Shown here one piece after another: positions 17,996 through 58,745 of a stretch of DNA of 64,000 nucleotides; within the stretch, counting starts at the first letter, position 1; every line of letters begins with the position of its first letter. The notes below the pieces were generated by a model. That model worked only from the letters and a program-made list of their open reading frames with translations, did not search any database and was not told the origin of the DNA. A program made the translations under genes and the position numbers. Source of the stretch: Salinimicrobium xinjiangense DSM 19287 (GTDB taxonomy: Bacteria > Bacteroidota > Bacteroidia > Flavobacteriales > Flavobacteriaceae); assembly GCF_000423585.1 (NCBI RefSeq), contig NZ_AUIG01000001.1, forward strand, positions 248,001 to 312,000, given 5' to 3'.

Positions 17996-20383
17996 ATGGA
18001 AGAACTCGAAGAGTTTTCAGAAAAGGAAGAATCGAATTTTGATCTCAAGGCAGAGATCTTTAAATACCTCAAATATTGGAAATGGCTGCTGTTTGGCTGT
18101 CTTCTGGGTCTGTTTATTGCCTACCTTTATAACCGATACACTCTTCCAGCCTACGCAACCCAGGCAACAATGATGATCCTGAATGAGGATAAAAATATGG
18201 TGGGAGCTTTGCCTTCCGGAGGATCTTCGGTGTTAGCCATAAATGATAATTCTCTTGACAATCAAATTGTTACTCTTAAATCTAAACAGCTGGTTGAAGG
18301 TGTTATTGATGAATTGAACCTAAACATTGCTTATTTCCTGGAAGGAAAAGTAATCGCTGTTGAAGCATATAGGAACAGTCCCATTATTGTCGAATTCTTA
18401 ACTGATAAAGATATTGTCCATACATCCAGCTTAAATATTTGGGTTACTCCCAAGTCTGCCAGTCATTTCTTATTAGAACAGGAAGATGGTTCTTCCAAAA
18501 GCTATGAGTTTGGAGAACCTATAATAATTGATAATCTTCAGTTCGCAGTGGCTCCCAATAAATCATCTTTTGATTCCAGGACTACTGTAAATGTTACGCT
18601 TAGACCTCTGCGCACTGTAGCTAATGAATATATCACTAATATGACTGTGGCTCCGCAGGGAAAGGCTAAGGACATTCTCTCTTTGTCTATAATAGGAGAA
18701 GTACCTGAAAAATCCCGGGATTTTTTAAACACTCTGATGGTTCACTTTAATGCTGATGGGGTTGCTGATAAGAGGCAGGTTGCTGAAAATACAGCTAAAT
18801 TTATTCAGGAAAGACTGGAATTAATCACCCAGGAACTGGATTCGGTAGAGGGGGGAATTGCTGATTTTAAGAGTGAGAACCGGTTCATGAGTGTGGAAAG
18901 TAGTGCCGGACAGTACATGGCAAAATCCACACGTGCGGAGCAGGAGATCTTCACTCTGGAAACTCAGCTCATGATCCTGGAGGGAATAGAAAATACGTTA
19001 TCTTCTGCCAAACCTTATCAACTTCTTCCTGAGGGCATGGGTCTAGAGAAGGGTGGATTAGGTAGTTCTGTAGGAAAATATAATGAGCTCGTATTACAGA
19101 GAAATATTTATTTAAAAACAGGAACAACAGAAAACCCGGTGGTTGAAACGTTGACAGAACAACTGGATGCCCTGCGGGAAAATATTCTTAAAAATATTCA
19201 ACAAACAAGAAGGTCTATAGACATTGAGCTACGGGAACTTTACCAGTTGGAGCAGACAGCAGAAGGGCAATTCAGTACCTTCCCTGGACTTGAGAAAGGG
19301 ATTCGCAGTATAGAGCGCCAACAGGAAATTAAAGAACAACTTTATTTATTTCTGTTGCAAAGGAGGGAAGAATCTGCTATTTCTTTTGCCGCTACTTCCC
19401 CAGTAGCAAAAGTGATCGACCCCGCCTTCACTTTCAGTAGACCTGTAGATCCTAAGCCCTGGCTAATTCTTACCGGAGGAGGACTAATAGGTTTATTGAT
19501 TCCGTTGATCGTAATATTTGTTATAAACTTTCTTGATACAAAGGTGCATCATAAAGGAGACCTTCAGCCTCTTACAAGACATCTCCCCTTTTTAGGTGAG
19601 ATCCCAGGTGTAAGTAAGGAAGAGTCTGAAATGATCCAGTTAAACGATCGTTCACCTTTAGCTGAATCCTTCAGGATCTTAAGAACTAATCTGGCTTACC
19701 TCGTTCAATCGAGGAACAAAGATAGAGCTGAAGTTATTTATGTGACTTCTACTATAAAGGGAGAAGGAAAAACCTTTGTTTCCTTTAACCTGGCACGAAC
19801 CCTTTCCAGTACAGGAAAAAAGATCCTACTGATTGGTGCAGATGTGCGCAACCCAAAACTGCACAAATTTGCAGGCAACACTTTGGAAACAAAAGGTTTG
19901 TCAGATTATCTTTATGACCGGGATATTCTGCCACAGTACGTTATTCAGCCAATGAACCAGGATAACATTCCTGTAGATGTTGTTTTCTCAGGAGCTATTC
20001 CACCTAACCCGGCAGAACTCCTCATGAATGACAGGATGGAGGAGCTTATTAATAGTCAGAAGACCAGTTATGACTTTATCATCGTGGATACCGCGCCTAC
20101 CATGATCGTTACTGATACCCTCTTGATCAGCCAACTCGCAGATACTACCCTTTACGTAGTTAGAGCAGGCTACACTGAGAAAAAGTTGCTGGAGTTTCCT
20201 AAAGAATTGAAACAACAGGGGAAACTAAAAGGCCTGGCCATTGTACTTAATGATGTGGATTATTCCAAATTTTCCTATGGAGCCAAATATGGTTATTCCT
20301 ATGGTTATGGCTACGGGTACGCAGCAGACGAAGACAAAAAGGGATTCTGGAATTTTATTAAAAAGCCTTTTAGTAGAAGTTAA
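17996..20383 (+). CDS. Wzc-like polysaccharide co-polymerase with BY-kinase domain
   Basis: The 795-residue protein has a Wzz domain with flanking membrane helices (about residues 30-50 and 487-510) and a long coiled-coil periplasmic part. The cytoplasmic bacterial tyrosine kinase domain has Walker A in STIKGEGKT (about 584-592), Walker A' in GADVRNPK and Walker B in FIIVDTAPT. The tail is a Tyr-rich cluster (alternating Tyr/Gly near residues 760-778) of the kind that is autophosphorylated. The kinase should control polymer length and export with the Wza-like protein before it. The PHP-type phosphatase at 21180 is its likely counterpart. It is the last gene of the operon that starts at 12750. 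Confidence 0.94.
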   Translation: MEELEEFSEKEESNFDLKAEIFKYLKYWKWLLFGCLLGLFIAYLYNRYTLPAYATQATMMILNEDKNMVGALPSGGSSVLAINDNSLDNQIVTLKSKQLVEGVIDELNLNIAYFLEGKVIAVEAYRNSPIIVEFLTDKDIVHTSSLNIWVTPKSASHFLLEQEDGSSKSYEFGEPIIIDNLQFAVAPNKSSFDSRTTVNVTLRPLRTVANEYITNMTVAPQGKAKDILSLSIIGEVPEKSRDFLNTLMVHFNADGVADKRQVAENTAKFIQERLELITQELDSVEGGIADFKSENRFMSVESSAGQYMAKSTRAEQEIFTLETQLMILEGIENTLSSAKPYQLLPEGMGLEKGGLGSSVGKYNELVLQRNIYLKTGTTENPVVETLTEQLDALRENILKNIQQTRRSIDIELRELYQLEQTAEGQFSTFPGLEKGIRSIERQQEIKEQLYLFLLQRREESAISFAATSPVAKVIDPAFTFSRPVDPKPWLILTGGGLIGLLIPLIVIFVINFLDTKVHHKGDLQPLTRHLPFLGEIPGVSKEESEMIQLNDRSPLAESFRILRTNLAYLVQSRNKDRAEVIYVTSTIKGEGKTFVSFNLARTLSSTGKKILLIGADVRNPKLHKFAGNTLETKGLSDYLYDRDILPQYVIQPMNQDNIPVDVVFSGAIPPNPAELLMNDRMEELINSQKTSYDFIIVDTAPTMIVTDTLLISQLADTTLYVVRAGYTEKKLLEFPKELKQQGKLKGLAIVLNDVDYSKFSYGAKYGYSYGYGYGYAADEDKKGFWNFIKKPFSRS

Positions 20384-20394
20384 TATTTTATACC

Positions 20395-21075
20395 AAAATT
20401 AACGCTGTCAGCGGCTTGACGCCCTGACAGGGTTGCAGACCAGTTCAACATTTTCGATGAACAACCATTGTTCTTATCAGACCTCAATATCCCGGATACC
20501 TGGTAGATTAAGAAAGAAGCGTCCCTGCCTCGAGCCTGAAGGGCTCAGACAAATCAGCCCGGGGCAACGTCCCGGGATAAATAATGGAGATTATCCATTA
20601 CCAGCCTGAAGGGCTGGAACAGGATCGGAATAGAAGATAAATTTAGTAGGTTAATTTTGAACGAGCTTTCCTATGCCGCTCCGCCGGAGCTCTTATCATA
20701 ATACCTCCGAACTTGCCATAAATATTCCACTCCGGAGCTGATTTGTAAAGAATTAAGCTCCGGGGGAGCGACATGTTTATAGAAATGTTTCACATGATTC
20801 TAATGAGCGCCAGAGGTGCGGCATATCAAATAGGTTAAAAATGAAATGTCCCTGCCTCGAGCCTGAAGGGCTCAGACAAATCAGCCCGGGGCAACGCTCC
20901 GGGATAAATAATGGAGATTATCCATTACCAGCCTGAAGGGCTGGTACAGGATCTGGATAGAGGATAAATTTTGCAGGTTAATTTGGAATAAGCCTTATAT
21001 GCCGCTCCGGAGCGACATGTTTAGAGAAATATTTTACCTGATTCTAATGAGCGCCAGAGGTGCGGCATATCATCA
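20395..21075. repeat. Cluster of REP-like palindromes in two direct copies
   Basis: The 797-bp gap after the kinase holds no gene. A block from about 20520 to 20830 recurs in shortened form at about 20845-21070. Both have GAGCCTGAAGGGCTC, a CCCGGGGCAACG-CCCGGG hairpin, CAGCCTGAAGGGCTGG and a shared end (GCGCCAGAGGTGCGGCATAT). The first copy has an extra CCGGAGCT inverted stretch. A different hairpin (CTGTCAG/CTGACAG) starts the cluster near 20404. The GCCTGAAGGGCT core is also that of the array around the RAYT gene at 57.4 kb. Confidence 0.8.
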
Positions 21076-21179
21076 AAAAATAAAAACCTCAAGTCCCGGA
21101 GACCACCTGTGAGATCTATTTTTAGTAATGAAGTAATTTATAATTCTTGATTTCCGATTTTTGCTCTTTCCAAAAACAA

Positions 21180-21926
21180 TTAAAAAGAAAATGTTTCTCT
21201 GGTTCGCTGAATAACCGGTAGAACAAGCTCCAGTTGTTTTTTGGACAATTGTGCCCCGGAAAGTTTTTCCAGATGCCGCATTTGGTGAGTATCTGTACCT
21301 AAAAAATCGATCATATCTTCTTCCAGAAGGCGATAAGCAATTTCCTGCATGTTCTTACCATAATGTCCAACCAAACTCAATGCGTTAAGCTGAAACAGGC
21401 AGCCTCTGCCTTTTAGGTCTGAATACCTGTTCAAAGATTTGGAATGAAAAAAGGCGTAGCGCTCGGGATGTGCGAGTACAGGTCTGTACTGCCGTGTTTG
21501 AAGCTGAAAGAGGATCTCATTTAGGTTAATTGGTGGCTGGAAATAAGACATTTCCACCAGGACCATTTTTTCTTTTAAGCATAGCAGATCTTCTTTTTCC
21601 ATCAGCTCTAGAAAAGCCTGGTCCATCATATATTCTGCAGCGGCCTTGATTTTTACTTTGGTTTTATCCGCAGAATTCAATTCTGCCTTTAAAAGGTTTA
21701 GAGCATTTCCTATACTTTCAGGAGTATTGGCATAATAATCATTCATGACGTGAGGAGTCGCGATAAAGCTGCTGATCCCTATTTTTTTAAATGATTCAAT
21801 AAGTTCCATGGATGCTTTTACATCTGCTGCTCCGTCATCTATTCCCGGTAAGATATGGTTGTGAATGTCTGTAAAATCCTCGAGCTGGTCTCTGAGAAAG
21901 TATTTCTTCTGAAAAAAATTGAACAT
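21180..21926 (-). CDS. PHP-family protein-tyrosine phosphatase (CpsB/YwqE-like)
   Basis: The 248-residue protein belongs to the polymerase-and-histidinol-phosphatase superfamily. DIHNHILPGIDDGA (about residues 20-33) gives the first His pair and Asp ligands, IATPHVMNDYY the third His, and LAHPERY and FLGTDTHQM (about 215-223) the last ligands. CpsB/Wzb-like members dephosphorylate the BY-kinase that controls polysaccharide assembly. The gene faces the kinase operon from the other side of a REP-like cluster and has its own -7 box. A divergent Wzi-like gene lies on its other flank. Confidence 0.9.
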   Translation of the reverse strand: MFNFFQKKYFLRDQLEDFTDIHNHILPGIDDGAADVKASMELIESFKKIGISSFIATPHVMNDYYANTPESIGNALNLLKAELNSADKTKVKIKAAAEYMMDQAFLELMEKEDLLCLKEKMVLVEMSYFQPPINLNEILFQLQTRQYRPVLAHPERYAFFHSKSLNRYSDLKGRGCLFQLNALSLVGHYGKNMQEIAYRLLEEDMIDFLGTDTHQMRHLEKLSGAQLSKKQLELVLPVIQRTRETFSF

Positions 21927-56703: not shown

Positions 56704-57345
56704 TTTGTCCCAGCCCTTCAGGCTGATAAAAACCACGCTAATCATTATAACCCGGAGCGTTGCTCCGGGCTAGAATATCTGAGGCTTTCAGCCTCAATAT
56801 ATTTTTTACCAGATAGTAAAGCCTGAAGGGCTTTAATAGAATAGCTCGGGGCACCGCCTCGAGATAGATGAACCACCCCCTAATTCGAGCCTGAAGGAAT
56901 TGCCAATTGTCGCTGGTAATATTGTGACTTGACATTTGACCCGGAGCATTGCTCCGGGCTGATTTCTTTGAGGCCTTCAGCCTCAATATCTGTTCTGGAA
57001 ATTATTCCAGATCGTAAAATCCTGAAGGGCTTTAATAAAATAGCCCGGGGCACCGCCCCGGGACAATAGGTCTACCTCAATAATTGGAGCCTGAAGGGCT
57101 CAAACCAATTGTCGTGCAATTTTACCCGGTGTGAGTCCCAGCCCTTCAGGCTGGTAAAAACTACGCTAACCGTTATAACCCGGAGCGTTGCTCCGGGCTG
57201 AAATATCTGAGGCCTTCAGCCTCAATATCTATTCTGGAAAATTTTCCAGATCGTAAAGCCTGAAGAGCTTTAATAAAATAGCCCGGGGCACCGCCCCGGG
57301 ACAAATAGGTCTACCTCAATAATTGGAGCCTGAAGGGCTCAAACC
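56704..57345. repeat. REP/BIME-like palindrome array, left part (three units)
   Basis: Three units of about 237 bp lie between the symporter and RAYT genes. They begin at 56709, about 56939 (lacking its first hairpin) and 57137. A complete unit carries six palindromes in fixed order: CAGCCCTTCAGGCTG, CCCGGAGCGTTGCTCCGGG, TGAGGCCTTCAGCCTCA, AAAGCCTGAAGGGCTTT, CCCGGGGCACCGCCCCGGG and GAGCCTGAAGGGCTC. The cores GCCTGAAGGGCT and its complement alternate in orientation. Differences among units fall mostly in spacers or preserve pairing. Confidence 0.9.
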
Positions 57346-57426
57346 CCGAGCAATCCGTAAACATCTTTATCTCTGAAATTCAATAGATATTTATAATATA
57401 TTGTGGTACAGTTAATTGTTTATTAT

Positions 57427-57876
57427 ATGGGACAATCCTTATCTAAATTGTATGTACACCTTATATTTTCCACTAAAAACAGGCATCCATTTATAACATC
57501 ATTGTATGAAGATTCTCTTTACAAAAACATATCTGGAATTTTCAAGAATCTCAATTCTCCGGTTTTAGCCATAAACTCAATGCCAGACCATCTTCATGTT
57601 CTATTTATTCTTTCAAAAAATAGTTCTTTAGCAGGTACGGTGGAAGAAGTAAAGAAGAGTTCCTCCAAATGGATGAAATCTCAGGGATGCGAATCTTTTT
57701 CCTGGCAAATAGGATATGGAGCGTTTTCCATCAGTCAATCAAATGTTGAGATGGTGACGAAATATATTGTGAATCAGAAAGATCATCATAAAAAATTTTC
57801 CTTCGAAGAAGAGGTTAAAGATTTTATGAAAAAATATGAAATGGGAGATTTTCATGAAGATTATTTTTGGCGGTAA
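57427..57876 (+). CDS. REP-associated tyrosine transposase (RAYT), Y1/IS200-like
   Basis: The 149-residue protein starts at the ATG at 57427, which gives the family N-terminus MGQSLSKLYVHLIFSTKNR; a GTG lies 24 bp upstream. It is a Y1_Tnp-superfamily HUH nuclease. The metal-binding HUH motif is in MPDHLHVLF (His55 and His57) and the probable catalytic Tyr113 is in YIVNQKDHH. It lacks any accessory OrfB. RAYTs cut and join single-stranded DNA at REP hairpins. This gene sits inside the palindrome array, three units before and four after it, so the array is its likely substrate. Both key motifs are intact. Confidence 0.92.
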   Translation: MGQSLSKLYVHLIFSTKNRHPFITSLYEDSLYKNISGIFKNLNSPVLAINSMPDHLHVLFILSKNSSLAGTVEEVKKSSSKWMKSQGCESFSWQIGYGAFSISQSNVEMVTKYIVNQKDHHKKFSFEEEVKDFMKKYEMGDFHEDYFWR

Positions 57877-57882
57877 TTCGGA

Positions 57883-58745
57883 ATTTTGTCCCAGCCCTTC
57901 AGGCTGGTAAAAACTACGCTAACCGTTATAACCCGGAGCGTTGCTCCGGGCTGGAATATTTGAGGCCTTCAGCCTCAACGTCTACTTGAAAAATAGTCTG
58001 GATTATAAAGCCTGAAGGGCTTTAATAAAATAGCCCGGGGCATCGCCCCGGGATAAAAATTCCACCACTATTATTCGAGCCTGAAGGGCTCAAACCAATT
58101 GTCGCGCAATTTTACCCGGTGTGAGTTCCATCCCTTCAGGCTTGTATAAAAGACATTATCCATTATCACCCGGAGCCTTGCTCCGGGCTGGAATATTTAA
58201 GGCCTTCAGCCTCAACGTCTACTTGAAAAATAGTCTGGATTATAAAGCCTGAAGGGCTTTAATAAAATAGCCCGGGGCATCGCCCGGGATAAAAATTCCA
58301 CCACTATTATTCGAGCCTGAAGGGCTCAAACCAATTGTCGCGCAATTTTACTCGGTGTGAGTTCCATCCCTTCAGGCTTGTATAAAAGACATTATCCATT
58401 ATCACCCGGAGCCTTGCTCCGGGCTGGAATATTTGAGGCCTTCAGCCTCAACGTCTATTTGAAAAATAGTCTGGATTATAAAGCCTGAAGGGCTTTAATA
58501 AAATAGCCCGGGGCATCGCCCCGGGAGAAATAGGTCTACCTTAATATTGGAGCCTGAAGGGCTCAACCAATTGTCGTGCAGCGTTGCTCCGGGCTGGGAT
58601 ATTGGAGGCCTTCAGCCTCAACGCCTATTTGAAGAATTGTCTGGATCATAAAGCCTGAAGGGCTTTAATAAATTAGCCGGGGGCACCGCCCAGGGACAAA
58701 TAGGTCTACCTTAATATTGGAGCCTGAAGGGCTCTAACAATTGTC
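57883..58745. repeat. REP/BIME-like palindrome array, right part (four units)
   Basis: Units begin at 57890, 58128 and 58364, plus a fourth truncated one at about 58580, with the same palindrome order as left of the RAYT gene and a spacing of about 237 bp. Units 58128 and 58364 are nearly identical to each other, with variant ends (TCCATCCCTTCAGGCTTG, CCCGGAGCCTTGCTCCGGG). The first unit starts with TTTTGTCCCAGCCC, exactly as the array does at 56704. The array ends about 125 bp before the next gene. Confidence 0.9.

Follow-up and report, generated by a model that had tools for sequence, protein, structure and literature searches.

What kind of system is formed when a transposase gene lies inside an array of palindromes, and do those palindromes belong to the enzyme? 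We addressed this question in a 64-kb window of Salinimicrobium xinjiangense DSM 19287 (NZ_AUIG01000001.1; the window is the whole stretch of DNA that was analysed, and positions are window positions unless another locus is named), where seven palindromic units and an HUH/Y1 transposase gene occupy 56707-58740. An earlier note on this DNA had taken the gene for a REP-associated tyrosine transposase (RAYT) embedded in its own array of repetitive extragenic palindromes (REPs). The embedding of an HUH/tyrosine gene in its own REP-like array was borne out, with an inverted arrangement like that of REPINs; the identity of the enzyme was revised. On our best reading, the locus is a REPtron-like system in which a module of three hairpins is the cognate partner of an IS200-type HUH/Y1 enzyme from TnpA_Y1 subclass 1.2, a kind of system that we did not find described in the literature searched.

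The array contains three units to the left of the gene (56707-57345) and four to its right (57886-58740), which together comprise 14 modules in seven inverted pairs. Register copies (repeat family D3) start at 56750, 56939, 57178, 57931, 58168, 58404 and 58574, with spacings of 189, 239, 753, 237, 236 and 170. The earlier count of seven units, three on one side and four on the other side of an intact open reading frame (ORF), stood; the period of about 237 bp given with it holds in three of the five steps that do not span the gene. A full unit of ~237 bp proved to be two convergent copies of a module of ~90-100 bp, each with a small hairpin (A), ~24 nt, a LARGE hairpin, 12 nt and a second small hairpin (B). 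The palindromes had been described as alternating with their complement, whereas their order within a unit is A-LARGE-B followed by B'-LARGE'-A', with GCCTGAAGGGCT located in B' and A' and its complement in A. Likewise, the repeated element is the three-hairpin module and not the long composite unit first proposed, and elsewhere in the genome it is present as a half-unit. In unit 4, the plus strand carries TTGTC, directly followed by hairpin A CCAGCCCTTCAGGCTGG (57891-57907), 24 nt, LARGE CCCGGAGCGTTGCTCCGGG, the 12-nt linker CTGGAATATTTG and hairpin B AGGCCTTCAGCCT, and the opposite strand has the same layout (B', LARGE' CCCGGGGC..GCCCCGGG, A'). The first palindrome is absent from unit 2, which lacks hairpin A of its plus module, and from unit 7, and A' of unit 1 is degenerate.

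We built a covariance model of LARGE-B (R1) from 12 modules; four rows of two 46-nt loci were excluded because MAFFT had misplaced a gap. At E≤0.001, R1 recovered seven plus-strand and seven minus-strand modules in the array, with which the weaker matches on the list overlap from the opposite strand, and all listed matches in the 64-kb window were confined to the array or to an orphan place at 20532-20903. The plus-strand LARGE-B modules of units 1 to 6 lie at 56751-56795 (50.0 bits), 56940-56984 (49.9 bits, a training row), 57179-57223 (50.2 bits), 57932-57976 (50.7 bits, nearest downstream of the gene), 58169-58213 (48.3 bits) and 58405-58449 (47.8 bits), and a degenerate plus module in unit 7 lies at 58575-58619 (29.9 bits). 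Their minus-strand counterparts in units 1 to 7 lie at 56819-56863 (48.7 bits), 57018-57062 (59.8 bits, a training row), 57256-57300 (54.0 bits, nearest upstream of the gene), 58008-58052 (a training row), 58245-58288 (48.1 bits), 58481-58525 (an R1 match) and 58651-58695 (46.3 bits). Related copies occur elsewhere in the genome, and with the unit as query, single places there matched on both strands, one strand covering query positions ~4-93 and the opposite strand ~125-212. These two-strand matches and the seven plus and seven minus R1 modules together show that the unit is an inverted pair. Folded as single-stranded DNA, unit 4 (57884-58096) reached -52.5 and -52.9 kcal/mol on the two strands (z -9.5 and -8.1), values that none of 200 shuffles equalled.

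The gene at 57427-57876 (plus strand) encodes a 149-amino-acid product that matches Pfam Y1_Tnp with 82.4 bits. Its HUH motif is DHLH and its catalytic-type tyrosine motif is YIVNQKDHH, that is Y---Q--HH; the class-2 motif Y---NP is absent. The product scored 32.7 bits with the NCBIfam RAYT model NF047646, below the cut-off of 80, and 56.4 bits with the NCBIfam IS200 model NF033573, narrowly above the cut-off of 55. At E≤0.001, every one of the 46 members of alignment A5 matched the IS200 model, and 27 of them also matched the RAYT model. The significant matches of a PDB sequence search were all IS200/IS605-type TnpA, with two unrelated chains at E 0.16 and 0.29. With the predicted structure (mean predicted local distance difference test score 92.6, predicted template modelling score 0.82), a fold search at E≤0.001 returned 30 chains, all of them Y1 transposases, of which 29 were IS200/IS605-type and the last was the RAYT-REP structure 4er8. 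As a separate observation, the predicted model superposed on RAYT 4er8 at 2.8 Å and on IS200-type chains at 5.3-12.2 Å despite its IS200-like sequence, figures that come from a one-chain prediction and from which the oligomeric state is not readable.

TnpA_Y1 enzymes have been split into classes, with Y---NP marking the RAYT-like class 2 (Quentin et al. 2018, PMC6006769, in the portion available). In the same portion, subclass 1.2 is given Y---Q--HH, a median length of 148 amino acids, a low copy number, the entry "no" for REP in the table, and no stated function. Among relatives of the window enzyme, Y---Q--HH followed HUH and WQ in 121 of 122 proteins, a set already filtered for HUH and Y-x3-Q. 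By its motif and length, rather than by the published profiles or tree, the window enzyme is assigned to subclass 1.2, and the palindromes beside the gene correct the description of that subclass rather than exclude the gene from it. The motif, the two model scores and the IS200/IS605-type PDB matches thus speak against the name RAYT. Since three RAYT hallmarks (Y---NP, a match to NF047646 and a GT[AG]G foot, on which see below) failed to appear in a locus that is REPtron-like, we place the system as a variant outside RAYT.

The evidence that ties the module to this enzyme came from the relatives. The R1 training rows had two-sided changes at 8 of 13 pairs, with 31 compensatory cells and one-sided changes in 0 of 156. 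At E≤0.01, R1 matched 69 of 129 loci of A1 relatives (64/100 and 5/29), six of which had given training rows; no match was found at 36 loci of other Y1 genes (35 distinct places; best E 0.014), where an HUH ORF was recovered in 16 and Y---Q--HH in none. When 122 proteins were grouped by nearest reference, the module was present for 63 of the 69 of the window/L012 type and for none of the 53 others, and on the tree of these proteins its presence could be explained by parsimony with 7 changes, where shuffling gave a mean of 41. The A1 relatives occurred in 96 of 198 Bacteroidota genomes, and named genomes of many phyla yielded at least 578 stretches that code for one, the best 80 of them being used. 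Judged by contig titles, the same association of module and gene extends to Verrucomicrobia, Planctomycetes, Acidobacteria and Ignavibacteria, among others, and is no peculiarity of the Bacteroidetes, the group named in the earlier note.

The flanks of these genes were also examined. Dropping identical proteins and flanks shorter than 350 bp reduced 124 detected genes to 105, and 400 bp on each side of them held 607 hairpins against 90 in dinucleotide shuffles, a count that includes short 5-bp hairpins missed by a stricter one; 88 of the 105 loci beat all 30 shuffles. A 12-mer was common to both flanks at 77 of 105 loci, as opposed to 10% of mismatched flank pairs. At 23 loci of other Y1 genes (22 distinct, L225 and L241 being the same place), for which gene finding was crude (one "gene" was 72 bp), we counted 56 hairpins against 14, 11 loci beat all shuffles and 10 shared 12-mers. 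Hairpin vocabulary followed protein identity across the 105 loci (Mantel 0.34, reached in 0 of 2000 permutations), to which linkage and common descent both contribute. Taken as a whole, we regard the association between gene and module as firm, with little room for doubt.

The modules have a preferred placement. In a set made from the best 150 R1 matches and 22 further rows (55 genes; six loci with matches and no recovered gene were excluded), the nearest upstream module was antisense, pointing away from the gene, in 38 of 45 cases, and the nearest downstream module was sense in 32 of 42, at median distances of 65 and 58 bp. LARGE usually lies beside the gene with B outward, and this exact layout was found in 20 of the 28 genes with matches within 200 bp on both sides. 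Of 127 distinct modules, 71 (2.2 expected) repeat hairpin B, with its orientation unchanged, on the 5' side of LARGE; this repeat is hairpin A, and its median distance is 24 nt (22-26 nt in 55 of the 71). In 65 modules with the normal distance, both small-hairpin copies are preceded, about two bases off, by a majority T-R-T-T. GT[AG]G was rare, occurring in 3 of 102 modules within the 8 nt before hairpin B and in 1 of 150 before LARGE. The T-R-T-T foot, which brings to mind both the tetranucleotide foot of REPs and the cleavage sites of IS200-type enzymes, is a candidate cut or guide site.

A search of Rfam connected the module with a family on record. The best bacterial match in the array was RF01687, Acido-Lenti-1, whose alignment spans LARGE, the linker CTATTTTAT and B. 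It scored 33.4 bits (gathering score 37) on the minus modules of units 4 and 6, and 26.3, 25, 20.2 and 21.7 bits on those of units 2, 3, 5 and 7, with 18.3 bits on the plus module of unit 2; a further match on contig C7 of this genome reached 31.0 bits, below the gathering score of 37. Matches to MIR3440, sot2652 and anti-hemB in the array were far under their gathering scores and were discarded as chance. A set of 20 from the 80 named loci gave 16 Rfam matches above gathering; each was Acido-Lenti-1 and lay within 0.7 kb of the gene, and together they fell at 6 of the 20 loci. No Acido-Lenti-1 match above gathering was found at 20 loci of other 1.2 groups, nor at 20 control loci (19 distinct), which gave a tRNA and CRISPR repeats only. 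One such place, L245:1968-3075 (L denotes loci, G genomes and C contigs of the present genome, G000), has a different Y1 gene beside a CRISPR array (CRISPR-DR4).

Acido-Lenti-1 was matched at E≤0.01 in 52 of the 198 Bacteroidota genomes, 20 of them above the cut-off, and 40 of the 52 belonged to the 96 that also have A1 matches, an association with an odds ratio of 5.4 (p 1.3e-6). Among the listed Acido-Lenti-1 rows, 17 of 150 lay within 1 kb of a listed 1.2 gene, where 0.2 were expected. None of 14 control genomes had a match at E≤0.001. In 50 carrier genomes, taken from the 80 loci, the family was matched at E≤0.001 in 37 and at or above gathering in 30, with at least 35 copies in 11 genomes and a maximum of at least 96 (97 candidates scored). 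Hairpin A was present in 20 of 20 dispersed copies of G247, a planctomycete metagenome-assembled genome (MAG), that had been chosen by their LARGE-B score; outside A-LARGE-B, agreement among these copies dropped towards background, except for a partly shared tail of ~25 nt. Hairpin A was likewise carried by copies in G173 (15 of 16) and G123 (8 of 8), several with longer shared context. Separately, G124 and G147 held 25 and 28 Acido-Lenti-1 matches; G147, which has no A1 match at E≤1e-10, is a candidate for repeats that outlive their enzyme. In the accessible text of the sources, Acido-Lenti-1 is listed for Acidobacteria and Lentisphaerae (Weinberg et al. 2010, PMC2864571), is a family whose function is little known according to a 2026 paper (PMC13298647), and is reported as noncoding RNA (ncRNA) in genome papers (PMC13298647, PMC10059132). 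Our literature and full-text searches returned no recognised link between these genes and Acido-Lenti-1, and the Acido-Lenti-1 passages retrieved do not mention the enzyme.

By analogy with REP/RAYT and IS200 biochemistry (Corneloup 2021, PMC8266576), the modules are probably cognate substrates that are mobilised by the enzyme. In the mechanism that we propose, the module (foot-small hairpin A, ~24 nt, LARGE, CTR-n-foot-small hairpin B) would fold when single-stranded, for example on the lagging-strand template, and the enzyme would bind its hairpins. The tyrosine would then cut at or near the T-R-T-T foot 5' of the small hairpin and join the ends, so that modules could spread in trans, singly or as inverted pairs. 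Unequal exchange together with module spread would build tandem arrays around the gene, which itself would rarely move. A wider proposal, to which we give even chances, is that Acido-Lenti-1 is the DNA substrate of a second, widespread REP system and not an RNA gene: subclass 1.2 enzymes with T-R-T-T modules would act as RAYTs do with GTAG REPs, from a separate origin, in at least Bacteroidota, Verrucomicrobia, Planctomycetes and Acidobacteria, with up to ~100 copies per genome moved in trans, and other 1.2 clades would run parallel systems with their own palindromes.

Several observations weigh against this reading. The nearest modules were oriented the opposite way at 7 of 45 upstream and 10 of 42 downstream places, and 6 of the 69 clade proteins had no module match. 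Palindrome enrichment was rejected as sole evidence because control Y1 loci are also hairpin-rich; hairpins near Y1 genes are therefore general, and the module is what is special. Other 1.2 groups use different palindromes, so that the module marks one clade and not the subclass. The best Acido-Lenti-1 match in the array stayed under the gathering score, and all but the 17 of 150 listed rows near a listed gene lay away from one. Twelve of the 52 Acido-Lenti-1 genomes had no A1 match at E≤1e-10, three of them with matches over gathering, and 56 of the 96 A1 genomes had no Acido-Lenti-1 match at E≤0.01; of the 12 that lack an A1 match, nine have other Y1 genes at E≤1e-5 and three have none, a discordance that may reflect, among other causes, loss of the cognate gene. 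Among the 14 control genomes, Haloferax volcanii had a match at E≤0.01, below the cut-off. Finally, attempts to locate a module's empty site to the exact base, at the array (compared among G000, G003 and G006) and at the orphan place, found none, the flanks being too diverged.

The strongest competitor of mobilisation by the enzyme is a domesticated housekeeping enzyme that processes hairpins or stalled forks, the array being a chromosome-structure element like a bacterial interspersed mosaic element and module spread a by-product or a thing of the past. The genus, compared in 12 genomes with one genome per species, offers evidence on both sides. In G003, whose neighbouring gene is 91% identical, a gene 71% identical to that of the window occupies the corresponding position, flanked left and right by a single six-hairpin unit, so that array length differs between species (1+1 units against 3+4). 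The small hairpins have changed in concert in G003, from CCTTCAGG to CTTACAG types with stems kept, and AGCCTGTAAGGCT, from the vocabulary of this orthologue, occurs seven times in G003, four times in G006, twice in G000 and at most once elsewhere. Loci L012 (G000) and L068 (G011) form a second orthologous pair whose palindromes covary. Such low-copy, long-lived genes at conserved loci, with palindromes that change in concert, count in favour of domestication. The distribution of the gene is patchy, however: a relative at E≤1e-5 was found in 8 of the 12 genomes, neither gene nor array stands at the site in G006 (neighbour 90% identical), and the gene is also absent there in G001, G002, G004, G008, G010 and G011, with a hairpin remnant retained in G005. 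We consider domestication unlikely but more probable than the other rivals.

Less likely still is an autonomous IS200-like insertion sequence, in which gene and flanking hairpins move as one and the array is a pile-up of ends. Its case is made by the IS200/IS605 TnpA that are the closest solved relatives by sequence and supply 29 of the 30 fold matches, by the inverted modules that bracket the gene, by the site occupied in G003 and empty in G006, and by the tandem gene-plus-array copies of L126. In this Dysgonomonadaceae MAG, L126:2130-4294 has tandem gene-plus-module repeats of ~850 bp, with three copies of a 300-nt segment at spacings of 873 and 834, the last near the contig end, which suggests that gene and array are at times amplified together. 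The hairpin remnant of G005 is, on the other side, compatible with loss, and the subclass has a low copy number in the available portion of Quentin et al. (PMC6006769).

The genome itself also argues against an insertion sequence. It holds seven Y1 genes, six of which encode Y---Q--HH; these six are 33-65% identical to each other with no near-identical copies among them, and all are flanked by arrays. Read by eye, palindromes stand on both sides of each, mostly with a vocabulary of its own, the 65% identical pair L009/L013 being the exception. This pair (contigs C28 and C20) belongs to another 1.2 group with GTCCCTACGGGAC / GCCCCTACGGGGC palindromes and has no Rfam family above gathering. Two more 1.2 genes, L010 and L011 (C18 and C5), have inverted multi-hairpin units with the palindromes GGGCTAAAGCCC with CCTCCGCC..GGCGGAGG, and CCACGGGTT..AACCCGTGG with AACCGTTTCAACGGTT. 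The seventh Y1 gene, L015 (26 bits), lacks an array and is flanked left and right by a single palindrome of another kind, and a pattern search did not recover its HUH motif.

Modules are, moreover, dispersed without the gene: 12 occur at five further places (C1:268.5 kb, C4, C12, C21 and C27; L019 on C21 is partly masked), and AGCCTGAAGGGCT is present in 30 copies here, against 0-2 per genome in the other 11 genomes of the genus. The place on C1 within the window is a convergent gene junction where the genome search and R1 placed two orphan three-hairpin modules, at 20532-20617 and 20859-20944 (both minus strand), with no Y1 gene. The genes on its two sides, which we take to be wzc-like and php-like, are convergent. 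The junction (20383-21180) is loaded with palindromes, namely modules in G000 and G005 and other palindromes in G003, and in G004, G006, G008, G010 and G011 the next gene begins at once; it looks like a hot spot. At L017:2440-2970, a gene that is tRNA-like by eye is followed by orphan modules in alternation with palindromes of the types TTGTCCTGTAGGGACAA and GGCACGGATTTCAAATCCGCGCC.

A functional RNA, that is, regulatory or stabilising 3' hairpins to which the enzyme is secondary, we consider improbable, and somewhat more so than an insertion sequence. Rfam classes the family as small RNA, the available part of Weinberg et al. rates it "probably RNA" (PMC2864571), and most listed copies lie away from a gene. 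The modules nevertheless stand in both orientations as inverted pairs, their presence follows one HUH protein clade, and the R1 rows show 31 compensatory cells against one-sided changes in 0 of 156. Among the pair cells of 137 distinct modules, 94.6% were Watson-Crick, 0.5% were G-U (9 of 1745; R1 was trained on rows free of G-U, a caveat on this scarcity) and 3.8% were A-C. Structured RNAs usually show several per cent G-U. The near absence of G-U, together with the inverted-pair layout, favours selection of the module as DNA, with the reservation that the training rows were free of G-U. An argument on the strand from wobble pairs was weakened, as A-C cells (66) exceed G-U cells (9) but 51 of the 66 close loops and the same training caveat applies.

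Accidental co-occurrence of terminators or old repeats with a transposase gene is close to negligible. In its favour, hairpins between genes are frequent, terminators are not captured by dinucleotide shuffles, and other Y1 loci are hairpin-rich too. Against it, the flanks share 12-mers far beyond mismatched pairs, module presence separates 63/69 from 0/53, and the modules have a preferred orientation.

A REPtron-like pairing of a subclass 1.2 enzyme with its module would offer a candidate function for two orphans, an HUH subclass described as lacking REPs and given no role, and an RNA family in Rfam that has no assigned function. If it is true, many "ncRNA" calls are mobile DNA hairpins, and the partnership of REPs with a transposase evolved more than once among Y1 enzymes.

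Compared with known systems, the locus is most like RAYT/TnpA_REP with REPINs. A Y1 HUH gene stands within its own repeats, with one vocabulary per gene, and the REPIN/REPtron architecture of inverted hairpin pairs around the gene plus dispersed copies is present here; the predicted fold of the window protein also matches the RAYT-REP structure 4er8. It differs from RAYTs with GTAG REPs in its class-1 Y---Q motif, in a foot that is mostly T-R-T-T instead of GT[AG]G, and in having three hairpins per module. The TIRtrons, or TIRYT systems (2013, PMC3733652), are, in the portion of that paper available, tyrosine transposase genes that stand between inverted repeats, some of which are in part self-complementary and occur repeatedly in the genome. 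Their enzymes are described there with motifs that distinguish RAYTs, and by this description they are set apart from the window system, with an overlap possible. The IS200/IS605 elements (IS608, ISDra2) share the closest solved TnpA by sequence and have hairpins near the gene, as here; the difference is that this genome has no near-identical copies of the gene and that its modules are dispersed without it. Subclass 1.2, as the accessible part of PMC6006769 describes it, has the same Y---Q--HH, HUH, ~148 amino acids, low copy number and occurrence in Bacteroidetes; it is described there without REPs, whereas the genes here are flanked by palindromes and have relatives in many other phyla. Acido-Lenti-1, finally, is the same element, with a LARGE hairpin, a 12-nt linker CTAnnnTAT and a small hairpin. 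In Rfam it is an RNA whose model leaves hairpin A outside; here it is a DNA repeat paired with an HUH clade, with hairpin A 5' of LARGE.

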